Assembly (NCBI RefSeq): GCF_014695975.1
Contig: NZ_JACJPI010000052.1
Span: 1 to 64,000 of the forward strand
Reading direction: 5' to 3'
Length of the DNA: 64,000 nt
Source of the DNA: Leptolyngbya sp. FACHB-321
Lineage (GTDB): Bacteria > Cyanobacteriota > Cyanobacteriia > Leptolyngbyales > Leptolyngbyaceae
Shown here one piece after another: positions 22,648 through 38,279 of this stretch. The notes under the pieces are model-generated. The model saw nothing but the letters and a program-made list of their open reading frames with translations. It was not told where the DNA came from and made no database searches. The position numbers and the translations under genes are program-made. The stretch's first letter is position 1, and every line of letters begins with the position of its first letter.

Positions 22648-22887
22648 AGTTCCTCATCTCCCTTTCAGTGCAGCGTTAAACTAGATCACTTCTTTCCTGT
22701 CTCCATGGTGGAAACCATCTTAGAAGTTGGCGACCGTACTACCAATGTATCCCATCGCTGTCGTTTAACGCTTCGTGCTGCTTGTCCAGTCCATTAAAAT
22801 GAATGACTTTTTACAGCCTCTGGTAAAACAGCAAAAGGCGATCGCTAGACCAGTATCAAACCTTACTCACGATCGCCGTTCACCAAG

Positions 22888-22960
22888 CGCGCCCTGGAGG
22901 ACTTGAACCCCCGACATCAGGTTTTGGAGACCTGCGTTCTACCAACTGAACTAAGAGCGC
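22888..22960 (-). tRNA. trnW: tRNA-Trp (CCA)
   Basis: On the minus strand the acceptor stem GCGCTCT pairs with AGGGCGC (one G-T pair). The D arm contains GTTCAGTTGGTAGAAC, and the anticodon stem CAGGT/ACCTG encloses the loop CTCCAAA, anticodon CCA. The T arm GGGGG-TTCAAGT-CCTCC completes the cloverleaf. The CCA end is not encoded. It sits between rplS and secE. Confidence 0.95.
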
Positions 22961-29994: not shown

Positions 29995-30819
29995 ATGAAT
30001 ATTTTTAGCCAACTGCGTAACAAACCTGCTCTGTCTTCACCGCCTAAACAGCGTCGCGGCATTGAGCTAAAATCTCCCCGCGAAATTGAGATCATGCGGC
30101 AGGCTTCCCGGATTGTGGCAACCGTGTTGAAGGAAATTGCAGCGCTGGTTGAGCCTGGTATGACCACAGCCGATCTAGATGCCCATGCCGAAAAACGCAT
30201 CCGTGAAATGGATGCTACTCCTAGCTTTAAGGGCTATCACGGCTTTCCTGCTTCCATTTGCTCATCTATCAACAACGAAGTGGTGCATGGCATCCCTAGT
30301 CGTAAAAAAGTAATCCGCTCTGGTGATGTGTTGAAGGTAGACACTGGTGCTTACTTTCAGGGGTTTCACGGCGATTCCTGCATCACAATCGCCGTTGGTA
30401 CTGTTACGCCCGACGCGGCACGTCTGATTCGTGTGGCGGAAGAAGCGCTATATAAAGGCATTGAGCAGGTAAAAGCGGGTGCTCATTTGCTGGATTTGGC
30501 AGGCGCGATCGAAGATCACGTGAAGGCAAACGGGTTCACAATTGTCGAAGACTTTACAGGGCATGGCGTGGGGCGCAACCTGCACGAAGAACCGTCGGTG
30601 TTCAACTTTCGTACCCACAGTATGCCAAACGTCAAATTGCGGGCAGGCATGACTCTAGCGATCGAACCAATTCTTAATGCCGGATCACGCTTTACTCGTA
30701 CCCTTGCTGATCGCTGGACTGCCGTCACGGTCGATAACACCCTCTCCGCCCAGTTTGAACATACAGTGCTGGTTACGGAGCACGGCTACGAAATCTTAAC
30801 CGATCGTACGAACGTTTAA
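29995..30819 (+). CDS. map: Methionine aminopeptidase, type I
   Basis: Metalloenzyme removing the initiator Met from new proteins. The core begins at [20 protein letters not shown]. Metal ligands are visible in [14 protein letters not shown] (Asp), [14 protein letters not shown] (His), LAIEPILN (Glu) and [10 protein letters not shown] (Glu). ATG 29995 gives a 274-residue protein with a short N-terminal extension; the frame is open to TTG 29926, but the added residues do not belong to the family. Confidence 0.95.
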
Positions 30820-30837
30820 ACGCAGACCCAGCAGCCA

Positions 30838-31539
30838 TTAACTGTCTAGCCAACGCCAATTAGGGCGATTCCAGTCATAGATTCCTTGCATTTCGTATTC
30901 GGTGCCATCCCCAAAGCGAAGAATGCAACTTGTCTCACTATTGCCTAATGCGTTAACACTACTGTCCCTTAGTAGTGAGCCAGCATCATTACTTTCAGTT
31001 GCGTCTCGGATGCTGACTACTGTACAGGGAAACCATTCTCGGCTACAGGGCCCGCTTTCTTGTACCCATTCCCACAAGCCGTTAGTGACTTCAATGCGGT
31101 CGCCCAGCTTTAGTTTGAGTCCATCACTGCTGTTTGATTCCAGGTAGGTTGCTACTTGTGCCGGGGTAATCTGCTCTAGCCACTGAATGCCGTAACGTTC
31201 ACGAATAAACTGAACGCCTCCAGAACTTCTGCCCTCAAGCCAATCATTCAGTAAAGTAATTTTCCAGGGTTGGTTTTGGCTTTCCTGCTGTTTAAGGAAC
31301 GACAGAAAGGCTTGCTTTTCATCAGACGTAAGTTGCTCTAGTGGATTGCTTGTACTATTTGTCTCACCCGCAACGGCGCTGCGATCGCAATCCAGTTGCT
31401 GCCCCTCCTGCTCAAACTGCATCGCCGCCAGTACTACTTGAAGCAAGATCTGCTTTTGGCGATCACTTAGAGGCTGCAAAACGTCTGCACATTGGTTAAA
31501 CGCTGCGTTGAGAGCAGCTTCAAGCTTCGATTGAGTCAT
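30838..31539 (-). CDS. Conserved cyanobacterial hypothetical protein
   Basis: A soluble, acidic 233-residue protein. The N-terminal half (1-60) is helical. The middle segment WKITLLNDWLEGRSSGGVQF (about 90-110) is followed by GIQWLEQITPAQVATYLE, and the C-terminal half contains a beta-rich module GDRIEVTNGLWEWVQESGPC ending CILRFGDGTEYEMQGIYDWN. I do not recognise a named domain; the last part looks like a small SH3-like barrel, which is inference. It is convergent with map, 18 nt away. Confidence 0.7.
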   Translation of the reverse strand: MTQSKLEAALNAAFNQCADVLQPLSDRQKQILLQVVLAAMQFEQEGQQLDCDRSAVAGETNSTSNPLEQLTSDEKQAFLSFLKQQESQNQPWKITLLNDWLEGRSSGGVQFIRERYGIQWLEQITPAQVATYLESNSSDGLKLKLGDRIEVTNGLWEWVQESGPCSREWFPCTVVSIRDATESNDAGSLLRDSSVNALGNSETSCILRFGDGTEYEMQGIYDWNRPNWRWLDS

Positions 31540-31700
31540 GTCTATCAGCGATCGCCGAACATGAATTCTCTATTATGACAAACGTTTCAAAAAGCGTCCT
31601 CCAGGCTATTGAGGTTCGATTCAAGATAAGCTGAGACAGGGCTTCTGCGTGATGTAACGAAGTCGTCCATCCACCGTGTCTAGCTGTTGACCCATACCCT

Positions 31701-32135
31701 ATGACATTTCGCGCGTTTGCCACTCTTTTTGCTACAGGTCTTTTGTGGTTGCTCACCACTTTGAGCACGCCGCCCGCCCTAGCACTTACCCAAATTAGGC
31801 TGTTCGACCTCTCTTACCATGAGTGCCCTGCTGAACTGTCCGATAAGCAGGAGAACAGTGGTGTTGCCAGCATCTTCCCCAACTGCTTCATCGTGACGGG
31901 AAAAACCGAAAATAAATTTGGCAAGCCTGTAGTCAACGCCGACATTTTTGGGCGTATCTACGATGCAAACAACGATTCTGTGATGCAAAATCGTACTCGT
32001 TTGGGAGCGATCGACGAAGTGCCGCCTGGTATTGGCACCTTTGATTTGAGAATTTCAGTGCCATCAAGTCAGCCAACACCACTAAAGCTAGAGCAGTTTA
32101 AGGCGGCTGGCTTCACGGGAACGGTTCGTCGCTAA
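31701..32135 (+). CDS. Secreted conserved cyanobacterial protein
   Basis: A 144-residue protein with a clear signal peptide (FATLFATGLLWLLTTLST, cleavage after ALA). The mature part contains LFDLSYHECP, PNCFIVTGKTEN and NADIFGRIYDANND, a pattern I associate with a cyanobacteria-specific secreted family, sometimes misnamed biotin carboxylase in annotations. Two Cys residues could form a disulfide. No function known. A strong hairpin terminator follows. Confidence 0.75.
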   Translation: MTFRAFATLFATGLLWLLTTLSTPPALALTQIRLFDLSYHECPAELSDKQENSGVASIFPNCFIVTGKTENKFGKPVVNADIFGRIYDANNDSVMQNRTRLGAIDEVPPGIGTFDLRISVPSSQPTPLKLEQFKAAGFTGTVRR

Positions 32136-32141
32136 GACTGG

Positions 32142-32182
32142 AAAAGCCTGCTCCGCATTCAAGAAAATGTGAGCAGGCTTTT
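32142..32182 (+). terminator. Terminator-like hairpin
   Basis: AAAAGCCTGCTC (32142-32153) pairs perfectly with GAGCAGGCTTTT (32171-32182) around a 17-nt loop, ending in a short T tract, 7 nt after the stop codon of the preceding gene. Confidence 0.8.
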
Positions 32183-32258
32183 GATGTGTTTGACTCAGCA
32201 TATTCAAGTGCTAGAACAAATGCTAGAAGCGCTTGAGCAAGCAACTACAAGGAATATC

Positions 32259-32561
32259 CTAATACCCTACTTGTGAGCCAACGAGTAACTGAGCGATCAG
32301 CGGCAGAACAGTGGATTGAACTACTTGTAGAAGCAGCAATGCCAGAATTGCTGAGAAGTCAAGACCACCCAAAGGTGGAATGATGGAGCGGAAAATATTC
32401 AGGTATGGGTCAGTGAGTTGACTCAGAATAGAAAACGGTGGATCAAACCAGTTAATGTTGGGAAACCAGCTCAACAGAATCCGGATAAATAGTAGAGCCA
32501 GGTAGAAGCCAAGACAGTTCTGAATTACTTGAAACAATAGAAAGATGGGGTTGTCAAGCAT
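32259..32561 (-). CDS. YggT family membrane protein
   Basis: A 100-residue protein with two hydrophobic segments flanking the motif PFSILSQLTDPYLNIFRSII, the YggT signature (a proline-rich interhelical segment). Family members are linked to osmotic tolerance in bacteria and to thylakoid membrane or nucleoid organisation in cyanobacteria and plastids (CCB3/YlmG). It lies near, but not coupled to, the YtxH-like gene on the same strand. Confidence 0.85.
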   Translation of the reverse strand: MLDNPIFLLFQVIQNCLGFYLALLFIRILLSWFPNINWFDPPFSILSQLTDPYLNIFRSIIPPLGGLDFSAILALLLLQVVQSTVLPLIAQLLVGSQVGY

Positions 32562-32683
32562 AGAGGTATGTTTCCTTTTACAGCAAAGATGTTGGCATCT
32601 GGACTTAATTTAACGAATATCAGCAGCGATCGATCCAGGTAAGTTTATCACCTCATACCAGACGCGCTATTTCCAGGTAGTAG

Positions 32684-33016
32684 CTACAGTTCTCTAGCAG
32701 TCGATCGCGCTTCGGTAGAGCCATTCACCCCACCCAGTTGTTGACGCACATCGTCGATCGCATCATTTAATTGGGCAATTTTATCTTCCAGGCTGCGGCG
32801 GGCAACTTCCATTTCTGCCTGTTCGTCGGCTGCCTTCAGCGATCGCCGCTTTGCCCTACTGTCTTGAGGATCAGCCTGACTGCTACTTAACAGCGGTTCC
32901 TCAGACTGGGGGTTAAGTACCCTGGAGGCAACTACAGCACCCAACGCACCGCCAACGATGCCTCCAAACATAGCACCGAGTAAAAAGCCGCCCGAAAAAT
33001 TGTCTCGCTGACTCAT
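32684..33016 (-). CDS. YtxH-like small membrane protein
   Basis: The 110-residue protein starts with a Gly-rich hydrophobic segment (FLLGAMFGGIVGGALGAVVA), a glycine zipper typical of YtxH-like proteins. A hydrophilic region and a C-terminal coiled-coil-like helix (about 68-98, heptads in SLEDKIAQLNDAIDDVRQQL) follow. Function unknown; membrane anchoring of a helical cytoplasmic tail is inferred. Confidence 0.7.
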   Translation of the reverse strand: MSQRDNFSGGFLLGAMFGGIVGGALGAVVASRVLNPQSEEPLLSSSQADPQDSRAKRRSLKAADEQAEMEVARRSLEDKIAQLNDAIDDVRQQLGGVNGSTEARSTAREL

Positions 33017-33153
33017 CGCTGCTCAAAATCCCACTTGCATCGCCAAATTTAACTCTTGCCTTGTTACCCCTAGCTTAACTGCTAGTGCCGCTAACGGCTA
33101 GCACTGTGAACAGGCTAAACACCTAGCCAAGCAAGTGCCTTAGATTAACATCA

Positions 33154-33804
33154 TCACGTGCCAAAGGTGCGATCGCCAGCATCACCCAGCCCCGGTACGA
33201 TAAAGCCACTCTCATTTAAACCTTCATCAATGCCAGCCGCGTAAATAGTGAGGCTAGGATACGCTGCACTCAGCTTCTGTAACGCTGTTGGAGCCACAAC
33301 GACAGAAATAATACGTACCAGCGCTGGATCAACTCCTCGTTGGACTAACTCTGCCATCGCTGCAATGCTTGTTCCTCCCGTTGCTAGCATCGGTTCTGTA
33401 ATTAAAACCCGCGTCTGTGGGGCGAAGTTCTCTGGCAGCTTGTTAAGGTAGCAGCTTGGCTCCAGAGTTTCTTCATTTCTGACAAACCCAATATGGTAAA
33501 TCGACGCTAACGGCAGCAGTGCTTGGGCACCATCCAAGAGCGCCAGTCCCGCCCTCAGAATTGGCATCACTACAACGGGCACTGTTGGATCAATAAAGGT
33601 CGCTGGACAGGGAGCCAGCGGGGTATCGATCGTAGTTTCTTGAATTGGCAGCCAGTCGCGAATAGCTTCATAGGTCAACCAGCGACCTAACTCAGTCATG
33701 GCACTGCGAAAAAGCGTTGAAGGGGTTGACACATCGCGGGCTACAGCCAACCAATGCTGGATAAGGGGATGTGGCGGCACATAGACACGCAGTTGAAGAG
33801 TCAT
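33154..33804 (-). CDS. upp: Uracil phosphoribosyltransferase (copy 2)
   Basis: A second UPRT-like enzyme, only distantly similar to the copy at 4671. The 216 residues contain the N-terminal HPLIQHWLAVARD, the PRPP loop ITEPMLATGGTSIAA and the C-terminal uracil-binding segment [17 protein letters not shown], all intact. It is probably active on uracil, although the divergence leaves room for a related regulatory or substrate-shifted role (for example a PyrR-like or UPRT-related function). It is transcribed alone, divergent from the crtISO region. Confidence 0.88.
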   Translation of the reverse strand: MTLQLRVYVPPHPLIQHWLAVARDVSTPSTLFRSAMTELGRWLTYEAIRDWLPIQETTIDTPLAPCPATFIDPTVPVVVMPILRAGLALLDGAQALLPLASIYHIGFVRNEETLEPSCYLNKLPENFAPQTRVLITEPMLATGGTSIAAMAELVQRGVDPALVRIISVVVAPTALQKLSAAYPSLTIYAAGIDEGLNESGFIVPGLGDAGDRTFGT

Positions 33805-33983
33805 AGATTAGAAAAATCTGAGAAAGAATAGTCCAGCGGCGATCGGTCACAAGTTTGACTCATCATACTCTCTTACTACAACTCAGTTTGCACTTCTAGG
33901 CTCACTTGTAAACGGTAAGCCAAGGCGATCGCGCAGGTGCTTACTGCCCTTTTTCGATCATGCTGTAAGGCAATGACTTAGAG

Positions 33984-34012
33984 TTGACATAGATTCTCAA
34001 CAAAGCTATGGT
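33984..34012 (+). promoter_or_regulatory. Sigma70-type promoter candidate
   Basis: TTGACA (33984-33989), a 17-bp spacer, then TATGGT (34007-34012) make a near-consensus promoter; the -35 box is perfect. The predicted start is near 34019, just before the hairpin unit ending at about 34088. Confidence 0.6.
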
Positions 34013-34018
34013 TATCTG

Positions 34019-34088
34019 AGTGTTCTCCTCTCTGAAGGATTAGCAGGGGGATTGGTCAGCAGCAGTAGACCGATCCCCTTTTTTTTTG
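34019..34088 (+). ncRNA. Putative small RNA or crtISO attenuator
   Basis: A short transcript of about 70 nt is predicted from the promoter at 33984-34012 to the terminator at 34047-34088. It contains no open frame. The 5' part is pyrimidine-rich (TTCTCCTCTCTGAAGGA), which could pair with Shine-Dalgarno sequences, as cyanobacterial sRNAs such as Yfr1 or IsaR1 do. Its size and shape resemble such sRNAs, but I cannot assign it to one. Alternatively it is the attenuated leader of crtISO, whose start lies 150 nt downstream. Confidence 0.5.
34047..34088 (+). terminator. Strong rho-independent terminator
   Basis: GGGGATTGGTC (34047-34057) pairs with GACCGATCCCC (34068-34078) with one G-T pair, followed by nine T residues. 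No coding gene lies upstream on this strand for several kilobases of matching orientation, so it must end a non-coding or leader transcript. Confidence 0.85.
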
Positions 34089-34237
34089 ATCCATTACTAG
34101 GATCGATTTCCCCTAACGCTTCTCTCTATGCTTAAAGAGCGAGGATTAGGCGGCTAGCTCTTACCGCGCAAGGCTTACTAGAGGCAGCAACTTCGGTAGA
34201 CTGGTGAAAGTCTTCGTCGTGTCGATTGCGCTATTCT

Positions 34238-35797
34238 ATGCCTTCATCTTCTCAATCCGCTTCAACGCCTGTTGCTGGGCAATCGCCGCTGTCACCAGCC
34301 GCTTCTACTGACTTTGACGCGATCGTGATTGGCTCGGGCATTGGGGGCTTAGTGACTGCCACACAGCTAGCAGCAAAGGGAGCCAGCGTCTTAGTGCTGG
34401 AGAGCTACCTGATTCCTGGCGGCAGTGCAGGCTATTTTGAACGGCAGGGTTATCGGTTTGACGTTGGCGCTTCGATGATTTTTGGCTTTGGTCAACAGGG
34501 TACGACCAATCTTCTCACTCGCGCTCTAGAAGCGGTGAACGTCAGTCTTGAAACGATTCCTGATCCTGTGCAAATTCACTATCATTTGCCCGACGGCTTA
34601 GAGCTAAAAGTACACAAAGACTATGAGAAGTTTTTGCAAGAGTTAACGGATCTGTTTCCTCATGAACAGAATGGCATTCGACAGTTTTACGATGAATGCT
34701 GGCGCGTGTTCAACTGCCTGAACGTGATGGATCTGCTGTCGCTAGAAGAACCGCGTTACCTTATGCGCGTCTTTTTTCAGCACCCGCTTGCCTGCTTGGG
34801 GCTAGTCAAATATCTACCCCAAAATGCTGGAGACATTGCCCGACGGTATATCAGTGATTCCGCGTTGCTGAAGTTTATTGATATGGAGTGCTATTGCTGG
34901 TCGGTTGTACCCGCCGATCGTACACCGATGATTAATGCGGGTATGGTGTTTAGCGATCGGCACTACGGCGGCATTAATTACCCCAAAGGTGGCGTAGGGC
35001 AGATTGCTCAGAAGCTAGTCGAAGGGCTAGAAAAATGCGGTGGGCAGATTCAGTACAAAGCTAGAGTGACCAAAATTTTGCAAACAAACGGACGTGCTAC
35101 AGGGGTAGAACTGGCTTCTGGAAAACGTTACACCGCAAAGCGCATCATTTCTAATGCAACCCGCTGGGATACCTTCGAGAATCTGATTCCAGCGGCGCAG
35201 ATGCCAACTTCAGAACGAAAATGGCAACGTCGCTATCAGCAGTCGCCAAGCTTTCTTAGCCTGCATCTGGGTGTTAAAGCCGAAGCACTATCGGCTGGGA
35301 CTGAGTGCCATCACATCTTGCTAGAAGACTGGGAGCGCATGGAAGACGGTGAAGGCACCATTTTTGTCTCGATTCCAACGCTGCTTGATCCAACCTTAGC
35401 TCCTCCCGGTTATCACATCATTCACACTTTTACACCCAGTTGGTTTGACGATTGGCAGCATTTGTCGCCGACTGCCTACAAAGACCGCAAAGAGGCTGCC
35501 GCCGATCGCCTCATCCAACGGCTAGAGCGCATCTTTCCTCATCTCTCTACCCATCTGGATTATCAGGAGATCGGTACACCCCGCACCCATCGCCGCTTTC
35601 TTGGGCGCAACAACGGCACTTATGGACCGATCCCTCGTCACAAGCTGGCGGGTTTGTTGGGTATGCCCTTCAATCGCACAGCCGTTTCTGGTTTGTACTG
35701 CGTTGGTGACAGCACCTTTCCAGGACAGGGGTTGAACGCAGTTGCCTTTTCTGGCTTTGCCTGCGCTCATCGGGTCGCGGCTGATTTGGGATTTTAA
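34238..35797 (+). CDS. crtISO: Carotene (prolycopene) isomerase
   Basis: FAD-dependent CRTISO/CrtH, converting tetra-cis-lycopene to all-trans-lycopene in the plant-type carotenoid pathway of cyanobacteria. The dinucleotide-binding motif DAIVIGSGIGGLVTATQLAA is near residue 27, with ESYLIPGGSAGYFERQGYRF after it and the C-terminal GLYCVGDSTFPGQGLNAVAF typical of the CrtI/CrtISO family. ATG 34238 is preferred over the TTG at 34226. The first 25 residues are a low-complexity Ser/Pro/Ala leader. A terminator-like structure at 34047-34088 may attenuate its transcript. Confidence 0.92.
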   Translation: MPSSSQSASTPVAGQSPLSPAASTDFDAIVIGSGIGGLVTATQLAAKGASVLVLESYLIPGGSAGYFERQGYRFDVGASMIFGFGQQGTTNLLTRALEAVNVSLETIPDPVQIHYHLPDGLELKVHKDYEKFLQELTDLFPHEQNGIRQFYDECWRVFNCLNVMDLLSLEEPRYLMRVFFQHPLACLGLVKYLPQNAGDIARRYISDSALLKFIDMECYCWSVVPADRTPMINAGMVFSDRHYGGINYPKGGVGQIAQKLVEGLEKCGGQIQYKARVTKILQTNGRATGVELASGKRYTAKRIISNATRWDTFENLIPAAQMPTSERKWQRRYQQSPSFLSLHLGVKAEALSAGTECHHILLEDWERMEDGEGTIFVSIPTLLDPTLAPPGYHIIHTFTPSWFDDWQHLSPTAYKDRKEAAADRLIQRLERIFPHLSTHLDYQEIGTPRTHRRFLGRNNGTYGPIPRHKLAGLLGMPFNRTAVSGLYCVGDSTFPGQGLNAVAFSGFACAHRVAADLGF

Positions 35798-35820
35798 GGC
35801 TTTTACAGCCGCTAACGCCC

Positions 35821-36024
35821 TCAATCTACTACTCGCAAACGACCCCTCCGCAGCAGTTCAAACACCCGATTAATTAACTCTTGCTCAGTCTGGTTAATAC
35901 TCTTCTGGGAAAGTAAGGCGGACATAAACTGCTGCTGATCAGCACGGCTAATTTTGCCACAGGCTGTAATTTGATTCACCATCTGTTCAATATCTGGACG
36001 ATGTAGATGAACGTCTTTTGTCAT
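35821..36024 (-). CDS. Small conserved cyanobacterial protein
   Basis: A 67-residue, helical, hydrophilic protein (PDIEQMVNQITACGKISRAD then QQQFMSALLSQKSINQTEQE). I recognise it as a type of short hypothetical found in cyanobacteria, without function. It is convergent with crtISO (23 nt apart). Its start is 68 nt from a perfect CRP-type palindrome at 36092-36107, which could control it. Confidence 0.65.
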   Translation of the reverse strand: MTKDVHLHRPDIEQMVNQITACGKISRADQQQFMSALLSQKSINQTEQELINRVFELLRRGRLRVVD

Positions 36025-36685
36025 TGATGCACCCGGAACTATCGCACGCTGAGTTTATCAAATCTCTATGTCTGCGCGATCGCCTATTTTCTGTGATTAC
36101 GATCACACAACAAGTTGTGCAATTGTTTTAGCGCTTTTTGTTTTTTCTAAAAAAGTAGCTTTGTGATTGCTTGCTACGCGTAGCTAGGAAAAAGTGCCTT
36201 TTCAGGTGTTATGCCGTTCTACAAAAACTGTGCTTAAGCAGCACAACATCAGCCGCTTGAAAAAATCTATAGGCTCTTTTCTGTCATCCCTTCTGCATTA
36301 ACTTTGTGCTGCATGATGTCCAGAAGCCTTGTGCAGTGAGTTTTTTAGTAGCGATCGCTACAATTGTCTCTTTTGCTAAACATAATAGGGTGCTGTTAAG
36401 TCGATCGCGGCTTAACTGTAGTTTTCACTAATTAACTTTGCTATCGAGATTAAAGTTTGCTTGGGGCGAATCAGCGCCTTAAGCTCTGCGATCGTTCTAC
36501 CAAATTTACTAGAAATTTATTTGAAAATGAGCCTTTCTATTCTTAGCTTTACGGAAAAAAAGCTCCTGATTTGTATCTTATAGGGAGGAACAATCAATCA
36601 GCTACAACATCAAAGCTTGTAGGTGGCTGTATCAACGATTAAGAGCAGACACAGATTGAGAACATACAGACAAGTGAGGTTTACG
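36025..36685. other. Long intergenic region with regulatory signals
   Basis: No gene is seen in these 661 bases. They contain the CRP-type palindrome at 36092 and HIP1 octamers, and are more AT-rich than the flanking genes. Probably the regulatory region of the two divergent flanking genes. Confidence 0.6.
36092..36107. promoter_or_regulatory. CRP/SYCRP1-type binding palindrome
   Basis: TGTGATTACGATCACA matches the TGTGA-N6-TCACA consensus of cAMP receptor proteins at all ten defined positions; the cyanobacterial regulator SYCRP1 recognises the same pattern. It lies 68 bp upstream of the minus-strand gene start at 36024 and 579 bp from the plus-strand gene at 36686. Confidence 0.6.
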
Positions 36686-37000
36686 ATGTCTGATTCACAA
36701 CTAGCCTTTCATTCCACCCTGCCCTCAGCCAAAGCTGCACCACATACTCTCTGCATCGATGTGCTGCAACCCGTTCGCCAGTGGCTTGACCGTCTTGCAA
36801 TTAACGATCCAAAGCTTGCCCGTCTTTTATACAAAGTAATTCCTGGTCAGTGCCCCTTCGAGCGAGATATCATCCTTTTTGGTCGCAAACTGGCTCACAT
36901 TCCACCTCTCTGCAAACTGAACCCTCTTTACGACCAGTTAGTCGGCTTGCGCTTTCGTTCGATGTGCTATCTGGTTGATGTCTGCGGGGAGACGGTTTAG
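36686..37000 (+). CDS. Mo-dependent nitrogenase C-terminal domain protein
   Basis: A 104-residue protein nearly all of which is the Mo-nitro_C domain: VLQPVRQWLDRLAINDPKLA, RLLYKVIPGQCPFERDI, ILFGRKLAHIPPLCKLNP and LRFRSMCYL. The domain is named for homology to a C-terminal extension in some nitrogenase-associated sequences, but cyanobacteria encode several stand-alone copies; the function is unknown. GAGG precedes ATG 36686, which is preferred to the frame opening at 36623. The 5' region is long and AT-rich. Confidence 0.82.
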   Translation: MSDSQLAFHSTLPSAKAAPHTLCIDVLQPVRQWLDRLAINDPKLARLLYKVIPGQCPFERDIILFGRKLAHIPPLCKLNPLYDQLVGLRFRSMCYLVDVCGETV

Positions 37001-37196
37001 AAGGCAGGAGGCTAAAGGCTACTAAAGGTTTGGTCAGTAGTTAGAAGCTGAGAGCCAGAGTTACAGAAATTTTCTACGGATAGCTACAGTTTTCTATCAG
37101 TGAGTAATCAGTGAGTGAAAGAGTGATGGGGTGAAGAGTATGGCTTAGGCAAGCGGAAGTAGCTGTAGCTTATCCTTCATCCCTTATCCCCTCCCT

Positions 37197-38279
37197 TCAC
37201 CCTGGCAAAGCGGTTAATTGACTCTCAATGCGGCTTGCATCCAACGCGCGACCGATGAAGACCAGACGGGTCTGTTTTGCTTCTTCAGGCTGCCAGGGGC
37301 GATCGTAAAACTGGTCAAAGCGCTTGCCTACACCTTGCATCACCAGCCGCATTGGTTTTTGGGGCACAGCGACAAAGCCTTTGATACGGTAAATTTCTTG
37401 CTCTTGTACTAGCGTTTCTAGTTGCTTTCTCAGTAGGGCAGGGTCAAAGGCGCGATCAAGGATCAGGTGCGCTGAAGTAATCTCATCATCGTGATCGTGG
37501 TCTTCTTCTTCATCATGGTGGCTAGGGCGAGATTCTAAGTTTGCTTCGACCGCCGCTTGAAAGCCAAGTAGGATATCTGGATCAAGTTGACCGTGACGAC
37601 TAGACACAATTTTGACGGCTCTGGGAAGCTCTTGAAGGACAAGCTGTTCAACGTCGGCTTGGGTTGCTGCATCGACCAAATCGGCTTTGTTAAGGATTAC
37701 CAGATCGGCGCAAGCAAGCTGGTCTTCAAACAGTTCTTGAATCGGTGTTTCGTGATCAAGGCTTGGATCGGCTTGGCGTTGCGCTTCTAAGGCTTTGAGG
37801 TCAGTAGCGATCGTTCCAGTTGAAACTGCTTCGCAATCGACTACTGTGATCACGCCATCAACTGTTACCGCATGGCTAATTTCGTGCCAGCGAAACGCTT
37901 TGATCAGCGGCTTGGGCAGTGCAAGCCCAGAAGTTTCAATGAGAATGCAGTCTAGACTATCTCTGCGCTTAAGTAGCTCTAACATGACGGGCAGAAATTC
38001 TTCCTGCACAGTACAGCAGAGACAACCATTGGTTAATTCCACGATGTCGGGTGGGCGAGATGTAATAGTTGTCTGTGAAGCCGTTTCATCAGCAGGGGTT
38101 TCTTCATCACAGACTTGGCACGATCGCAGTAAGTCACCATCAATCCCCAATTCGCCAAACTCGTTGACCAGTACGGCAATACGTCTGCCCTGATTATTTT
38201 GCAGCAGATGCCGAATCAGCGTTGTTTTGCCGCTGCCGAGAAAGCCTGTGATGATAGTGACGGGGATTTTTGCTGCCAT
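37197..38279 (-). CDS. CobW family GTP-binding metal chaperone
   Basis: G3E-family GTPase. The P loop GFLGSGKTT (about 12-20), the metal-binding GCLCC motif (CxCC, about residue 85), ILIETSGLALP, and NKADL for guanine specificity are present, then a His/Asp/Glu-rich loop (about 253-268, HHDEEEDHDHDD) and the C-terminal CobW_C domain. Members insert or deliver Zn or Co; the common annotation CobW (cobalamin synthesis) is not proven here. The acidic His loop suggests Zn2+ or Ni2+/Co2+ handling. Confidence 0.88.
   Translation of the reverse strand: MAAKIPVTIITGFLGSGKTTLIRHLLQNNQGRRIAVLVNEFGELGIDGDLLRSCQVCDEETPADETASQTTITSRPPDIVELTNGCLCCTVQEEFLPVMLELLKRRDSLDCILIETSGLALPKPLIKAFRWHEISHAVTVDGVITVVDCEAVSTGTIATDLKALEAQRQADPSLDHETPIQELFEDQLACADLVILNKADLVDAATQADVEQLVLQELPRAVKIVSSRHGQLDPDILLGFQAAVEANLESRPSHHDEEEDHDHDDEITSAHLILDRAFDPALLRKQLETLVQEQEIYRIKGFVAVPQKPMRLVMQGVGKRFDQFYDRPWQPEEAKQTRLVFIGRALDASRIESQLTALPG

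Follow-up and report, generated by a model that had tools for sequence, protein, structure and literature searches.

The closest described system is IsaR1, iron-stress activated RNA 1, the original description of which was reportedly given by Georg et al. in 2017 for Synechocystis sp. PCC 6803. In passages of the published literature, the RNA of strain 6803 is given as 68 nt long with a transcription start site at 3164320 (PMC6202907), one paper gives it as an example of sRNAs with a FurA-controlled promoter (PMC12090762), and its reported targets number more than 15, acnB among them, with sufBCDS, sodB, fed1 and acnB named in one account (PMC8136909). The sRNA NC-181, for which a section of another paper gives a length of about 70 nt, possible homologs across diverse cyanobacteria and a set of predicted targets that includes sodB (PMC3516471), is probably the same RNA as IsaR1, and an excerpt of a further study suggests that Trichodesmium may lack an sRNA of this kind (PMC12090762). 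RyhB of Escherichia coli and PrrF of Pseudomonas are likewise presented, in part of one source, as Fur-linked sRNAs acting on iron proteins, for example sodB (PMC3516471); the sRNA studied here has no match to their Rfam families, and they are analogues by role rather than demonstrated relatives.

The window (the whole stretch of 64,000 nucleotides of Leptolyngbya sp. FACHB-321 that was analysed) very probably contains the IsaR1 gene of this cyanobacterium, which would be controlled by Fur and would pair with mRNAs of iron proteins, a reading to which we give a probability of roughly 0.88. The assignment is based on comparing size, place, promoter and targets with the published description of the 6803 RNA, and it is very improbable that the unit represents a novel type of sRNA or an attenuator of crtISO. 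The features of the locus are as follows.

33154-33804, minus strand: upp, uracil phosphoribosyltransferase (Pfam PF14681, E 5e-69), a neighbour outside the sRNA unit
33984-33989, plus strand: -35 hexamer TTGACA, exact in 54 of 59 genomes
33985-33999, plus strand: predicted Fur-box-like element TGACATAGATTCTCA, overlapping the promoter and agreeing at 10 of 12 positions with TGANAATNATTNTCA, which we take to be the Fur-box consensus
34007-34012, plus strand: -10 hexamer TATGGT (promoter-site scan and locus alignments)
34019-34088, plus strand: sRNA of about 69-70 nt, very probably an IsaR1 homolog (covariance model; ends predicted)
34019-34032, plus strand: near-invariant 5' pairing region AGTGTTCTCCTCTC (alignments), with complements 5' of sufB and sodB starts
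34021-34045, plus strand: weak predicted 5' hairpin (fold), holding part of the pairing region
34024-34033, plus strand: CU-rich stretch UCUCCUCUCU (sequence reading)
34046-34087, plus strand: Rho-independent terminator, consisting of a GC hairpin (34046-34079) and a T run (34079-34087), with covariation
34238-35797, plus strand: crtISO, CrtH-type carotenoid isomerase (ORF from ATG), a neighbour outside the sRNA unit

The promoter, TTGACA-17-TATGGT at 33984-34012 on the plus strand, lies between the divergent genes upp and crtISO, and the GC hairpin, with nine T's at its end, follows the -10 element at a distance of 33 nt. The perfect -35, the 17-bp spacer, the GC hairpin with its nine T's and the lack of an intervening gene, all of which an earlier note on this DNA had pointed out, were confirmed, and no ORF of at least 40 aa was found within 33851-34225. 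The name crtISO was taken from that first reading; Pfam describes the frame as an FAD-dependent oxidoreductase. Elsewhere in the window, on the minus strand, we observed a ribosomal protein L10 leader (RF00557, 20262-20423, 52.9 bits) and a tRNA-Trp (22887-22960).

The conservation search in relatives that the earlier note had proposed found the unit widely. With positions 33975-34095 as a DNA query, there were matches in 35 of 58 genomes at E<=1e-3, a number that rose to 46 at E<=0.1; both counts include own genome, and the weakest of the latter matches cover only 20-30 nt and are possibly due to chance. A covariance model of the RNA only, built from 29 of the 30 aligned sequences and excluding the promoter, gave matches at E<=0.01 in 166 of the class's 388 genomes (137 of 359 when its building genomes are set aside), while 222 of the 388 had no match under strict filters; the suggested absence from Trichodesmium is in line with this patchy result. 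The model matched all five genomes of a genus that we take to be Synechocystis, and on the window it returned exactly 34019-34088 (82.2 bits, E 2e-22), the window being one of its 29 building sequences. Further comparisons used 59 genomes, of which 30 came from the DNA search and 29 from the covariance model (11 best-scoring, 14 hand-picked and 4 of the genus Synechocystis); at loci with more than one seed match, the match whose -35 was better was used.

Across the 30 aligned loci the conserved block reads AGTGTTCTCCTCTCTGAAGGAT and begins at 34019, seven bases past the -10 element, so that the start proposed near this position coincides with the first base of the block and is here the predicted start. 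The perfect 13-mer AGTGTTCTCCTCT stands at the 5' end of the sRNA in 50 of the 59 genomes, and in RNA letters the end motif is GUGUUCUC(C/U)UCU. The aligned sequence omitted from the model, L028 (genome G055), carries the seed AGTGTTCTCCTCT twice in tandem from about position 1538, as if duplicated within one sRNA copy. The model matched twice in two genomes: G009 has two strong matches (C15:5123-5194 and C6:14377-14446), and those of G026 (C44:133928-133992 and 137509-137573) are separated by 3.6 kb, the second being weak (E 2e-6).

The fold of 34018-34088 has a predicted energy of -26.9 kcal/mol (z -3.25), and none of 200 shuffles was as stable. An automated terminator scan, limited to loops of 3-8, did not list the GC hairpin at 34046-34079. 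In the locus alignment, 94.2% of the cells of the terminator helix are paired and seven of its nine pairs show changes on both sides, with 24 both-sided cells against 7.3 in shuffles; none of 500 shuffles attained the observed percentage paired, number of both-sided cells or covariation score, and sliding the helix out of register gave at most 54.3% paired. The terminator hairpin is thus preserved through paired changes while its letters drift. For the 5' hairpin, 97.4% of cells are paired and no pair changed on both sides; since this hairpin hardly varies, the variation speaks neither for nor against it. Judged from the sequences, 34019-34088 is a real, conserved, free-standing sRNA.

A Fur-box-like sequence, reaching at least 9 of 12 consensus positions, covers the -35 and spacer in 55 of the 59 genomes; two of the others reach 9/12 only at another place and two never do. 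The mean best match was 10.3 compared with 7.3 in block-shuffled copies, a score in which any TTGACA supplies four of the 12 positions and in which the window element has two mismatches. The first 30 loci were found by a DNA query that contained the promoter; among the 29 model-found genomes, for which the promoter was no part of the search, 26 have the exact TTGACA and 28 carry the Fur-like element. The genome of FACHB-321 has three Fur-family genes, and the Fur-box-like sequence on the -35 makes the sRNA promoter a candidate for iron/Fur control.

Target prediction, another step put forward in the earlier note, pointed to genes of iron-using proteins. The sequence GAGAACACT, which is complementary to bases 1-9 of the sRNA, stands just 5' of the sufB start in own genome (G000:C87:47134), and a perfect complement of at least 8 nt to sRNA nt 1-20 was found at the sufB starts of 14 of 22 genomes, compared with 0.19 expected from shuffled copies. 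Outside the window's family the site was present in two of the four scored genomes (G036 and G050, not G040 and G057). For sodB, such complements of at least 8 nt occur in four of 23 genomes against 0.35 expected, and AGAACAC lies within 15 nt 5' of the start in 13 of 23, own genome included; in 12 of those 13, again with own genome, the leader is AGAGAGAAGAACAC, which is complementary to the seed with hardly a break. Control starts had no complement of at least 8 nt (upp 0/13, crtISO 0/8). Starts could be placed at 22 of 23 sufB, 12 of 15 sodB, 21 of 21 acnB, 13 of 25 upp and 8 of 25 crtISO loci. The partial sufB of G043 was excluded, and the sod genes were sorted by eye and only sodB-like ones scored (three of 12 with at least 8 nt) before sodB was rescored on a larger set of 24 loci, 23 of them scored, with own genome added. 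These are related genomes whose shared ancestry makes the target counts not independent, but their leaders differ elsewhere. Together with the conservation and the terminator covariation, the sufB and sodB sites support the earlier suggestion of an sRNA with a CU-rich part that may pair near start codons.

In these respects the predicted RNA resembles IsaR1: it is a free-standing cyanobacterial sRNA, about 70 nt long and closed by its own terminator (34019-34087/8, predicted), with a putative iron-type promoter and with sufB and sodB as predicted targets. It differs in that acnB starts had no perfect complement of at least 8 nt in these genomes (0/21), an interrupted pairing still being possible there. 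In the genus Synechocystis, homologs of the window sRNA adjoin crtISO in four of five genomes, and in the fifth (RI_101) no crtISO was found within its 8-kb stretch; no sucrose-phosphate synthase gene was seen by eye in the examined stretches of Synechocystis relatives. For strain 6803 itself, passages of two papers place position 3142651 in sll0045 (PMC4632739) and identify crtH as sll0033 (PMC9505123). The first position is 21.7 kb from the IsaR1 start site, and the close locus numbers sll0033 and sll0045 make a neighbourhood of IsaR1 and crtH in 6803 plausible rather than proved. Compared with that neighbourhood, the other neighbour here is upp in 39 of the 59 genomes.

Size, putative iron-type promoter, predicted targets and possible place in Synechocystis fit a known RNA, and the word "new" in the earlier note's description is not supported. 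That the unit is instead a different and so far undescribed iron-responsive sRNA, unrelated to IsaR1, we consider improbable. Such a reading could draw on the Rfam 15 search, in which neither the gathering cut-off nor E up to 10 gave a family for this unit beyond chance, and on NC-1321, an sRNA of about 80 nt that is likewise induced by iron and is reported for Synechocystis in a portion of PMC3516471; against it, the Synechocystis copies agree with IsaR1 in targets, in possible place and roughly in length, one copy measuring 64 nt up to where its T run stops, compared with 68. A text search with the seed letters returned no cyanobacterial paper by title.

Other cyanobacterial sRNAs were considered as candidates. 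Yfr1 (RF01116) is likewise a short cyanobacterial sRNA, and it carries a CU-rich motif; it was rejected, RF01116 having no match at the unit and the genome's own Yfr1 lying at C54:537973-538037 (58.8 bits). NsiR4 and PsrR1 were considered on the basis of reviews.

The earlier note had also offered a transcription attenuator of the carotenoid isomerase gene, a cis-acting leader in which transcription toward crtISO would halt at the terminator unless a signal opened the hairpin. Its attraction is the neighbourhood, as in 40 of the 59 genomes crtISO adjoins the unit in the same orientation: both genes flank it in 30 (upp on the opposite strand), crtISO alone in 10, upp alone in nine, and neither was detected in 10, so that upp and/or crtISO flank the unit in 49. 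Many flanks extend for just some 1.5 kb (the contig of G006 stops just past the unit, and in G019 crtISO is 1.6 kb away), but crtISO is absent around the unit in 11 genomes whose flanks reach about 3 kb in both directions (L064-L068, L072-L074, L076, L080, L081), which speaks against an attenuator, and the unit therefore has no obligatory position 5' of crtISO. In G231, one of the Synechocystis genomes, the homolog is situated behind an LdpA gene. Moreover, the invariant part is the 5' end rather than an antiterminator pairing, general folding showed no competing hairpin, and the complementary sites sit at other genes, sufB and sodB, with none at the eight crtISO starts. The attenuator is thus highly improbable, even less credible than an undescribed sRNA; IsaR1 would act in trans, with crtISO and upp as mere neighbours.

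The description of the promoter as near-consensus stands insofar as its hexamers match at 10 of 12 positions, the best of the six promoter-like sites in 30000-38000, and fails as a mark of significance, the six sites in that 8 kb comparing with 7.6 expected in shuffles; the unit stands above chance because of its conservation, not because of its consensus match. A chance pairing of promoter and terminator without function, for which the equal frequency of such hexamers in shuffled sequence might be cited, is the least believable reading of all, already contradicted by the conservation, the near-invariant 5' end and the covariation.

On the IsaR1 reading, Fur would occupy its operator over the -35 when iron is sufficient and keep the gene silent. 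Under iron starvation Fur would be released, and transcription from 34019 to the sRNA's terminator would yield an RNA of about 69-70 nt. Through its near-invariant 5' end, AGUGUUCUCCUCUC, this RNA would then pair with messages of iron-using proteins whose ribosome-binding sites contain sequences resembling GAGAACACU or AGAGAGAAGAACAC, namely those of sufB and sodB and, in own genome, perhaps of phoX and a ferritin-like protein, and the pairing would stop translation of these targets and spare iron.

The last two candidates came from a search of own genome with GAGAACAC-N(0-16)-ATG, which gave 38 matches (37 sites, one counted twice) compared with 16 for the reversed pattern. Nine of the 38 precede an ORF of at least 100 aa, and by eye three of these (sufB, PhoX and the ferritin-like protein) look like true starts, the other six appearing internal to longer frames. 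The two additional sites are the following.

L205:1496-1508, equal to G000:C54:395879-395891: predicted phoX site, complement of the sRNA 5' end
L217, equal to G000:C72:155202-155216, minus strand: predicted site of the ferritin-like gene, complement of the sRNA 5' end

The gene of the PhoX alkaline phosphatase (PF05787, E 2e-121) has a 13-nt perfect site, GAGAGGAGAACAC, two bases 5' of its start codon, and that of the ferritin-like protein (PF13668, E 5e-22) has GGAGAACAC four bases 5' of its own. PhoX requires iron. In 25 genomes with phoX, scored over a wider region and with no shuffled control, runs of at least 8 nt were found in nine; in G001, G002, G004, G005 and G006 the run is TCCTTCAG, which matches another part of the sRNA, and G036, G057 and G017 have sites resembling the one in own genome, of 10, 9 and 8 nt respectively, while that of G050 is interrupted. 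It is possible, though we hold it rather doubtful, that the IsaR1 network in this lineage extends to phosphate scavenging and iron storage by repression of PhoX and the ferritin-like protein.

IsaR1 has been described as a central iron-sparing switch of oxygenic phototrophs, and because Rfam 15 has no match for this unit, the near-invariant pairing end, the recurring neighbourhood and the covariance model offer a practical route to its annotation. If the sRNA does repress PhoX and the ferritin-like protein, a single sRNA would tie iron starvation directly to phosphate acquisition, and a working phoX site would mean that iron and phosphate limitation are coupled post-transcriptionally.
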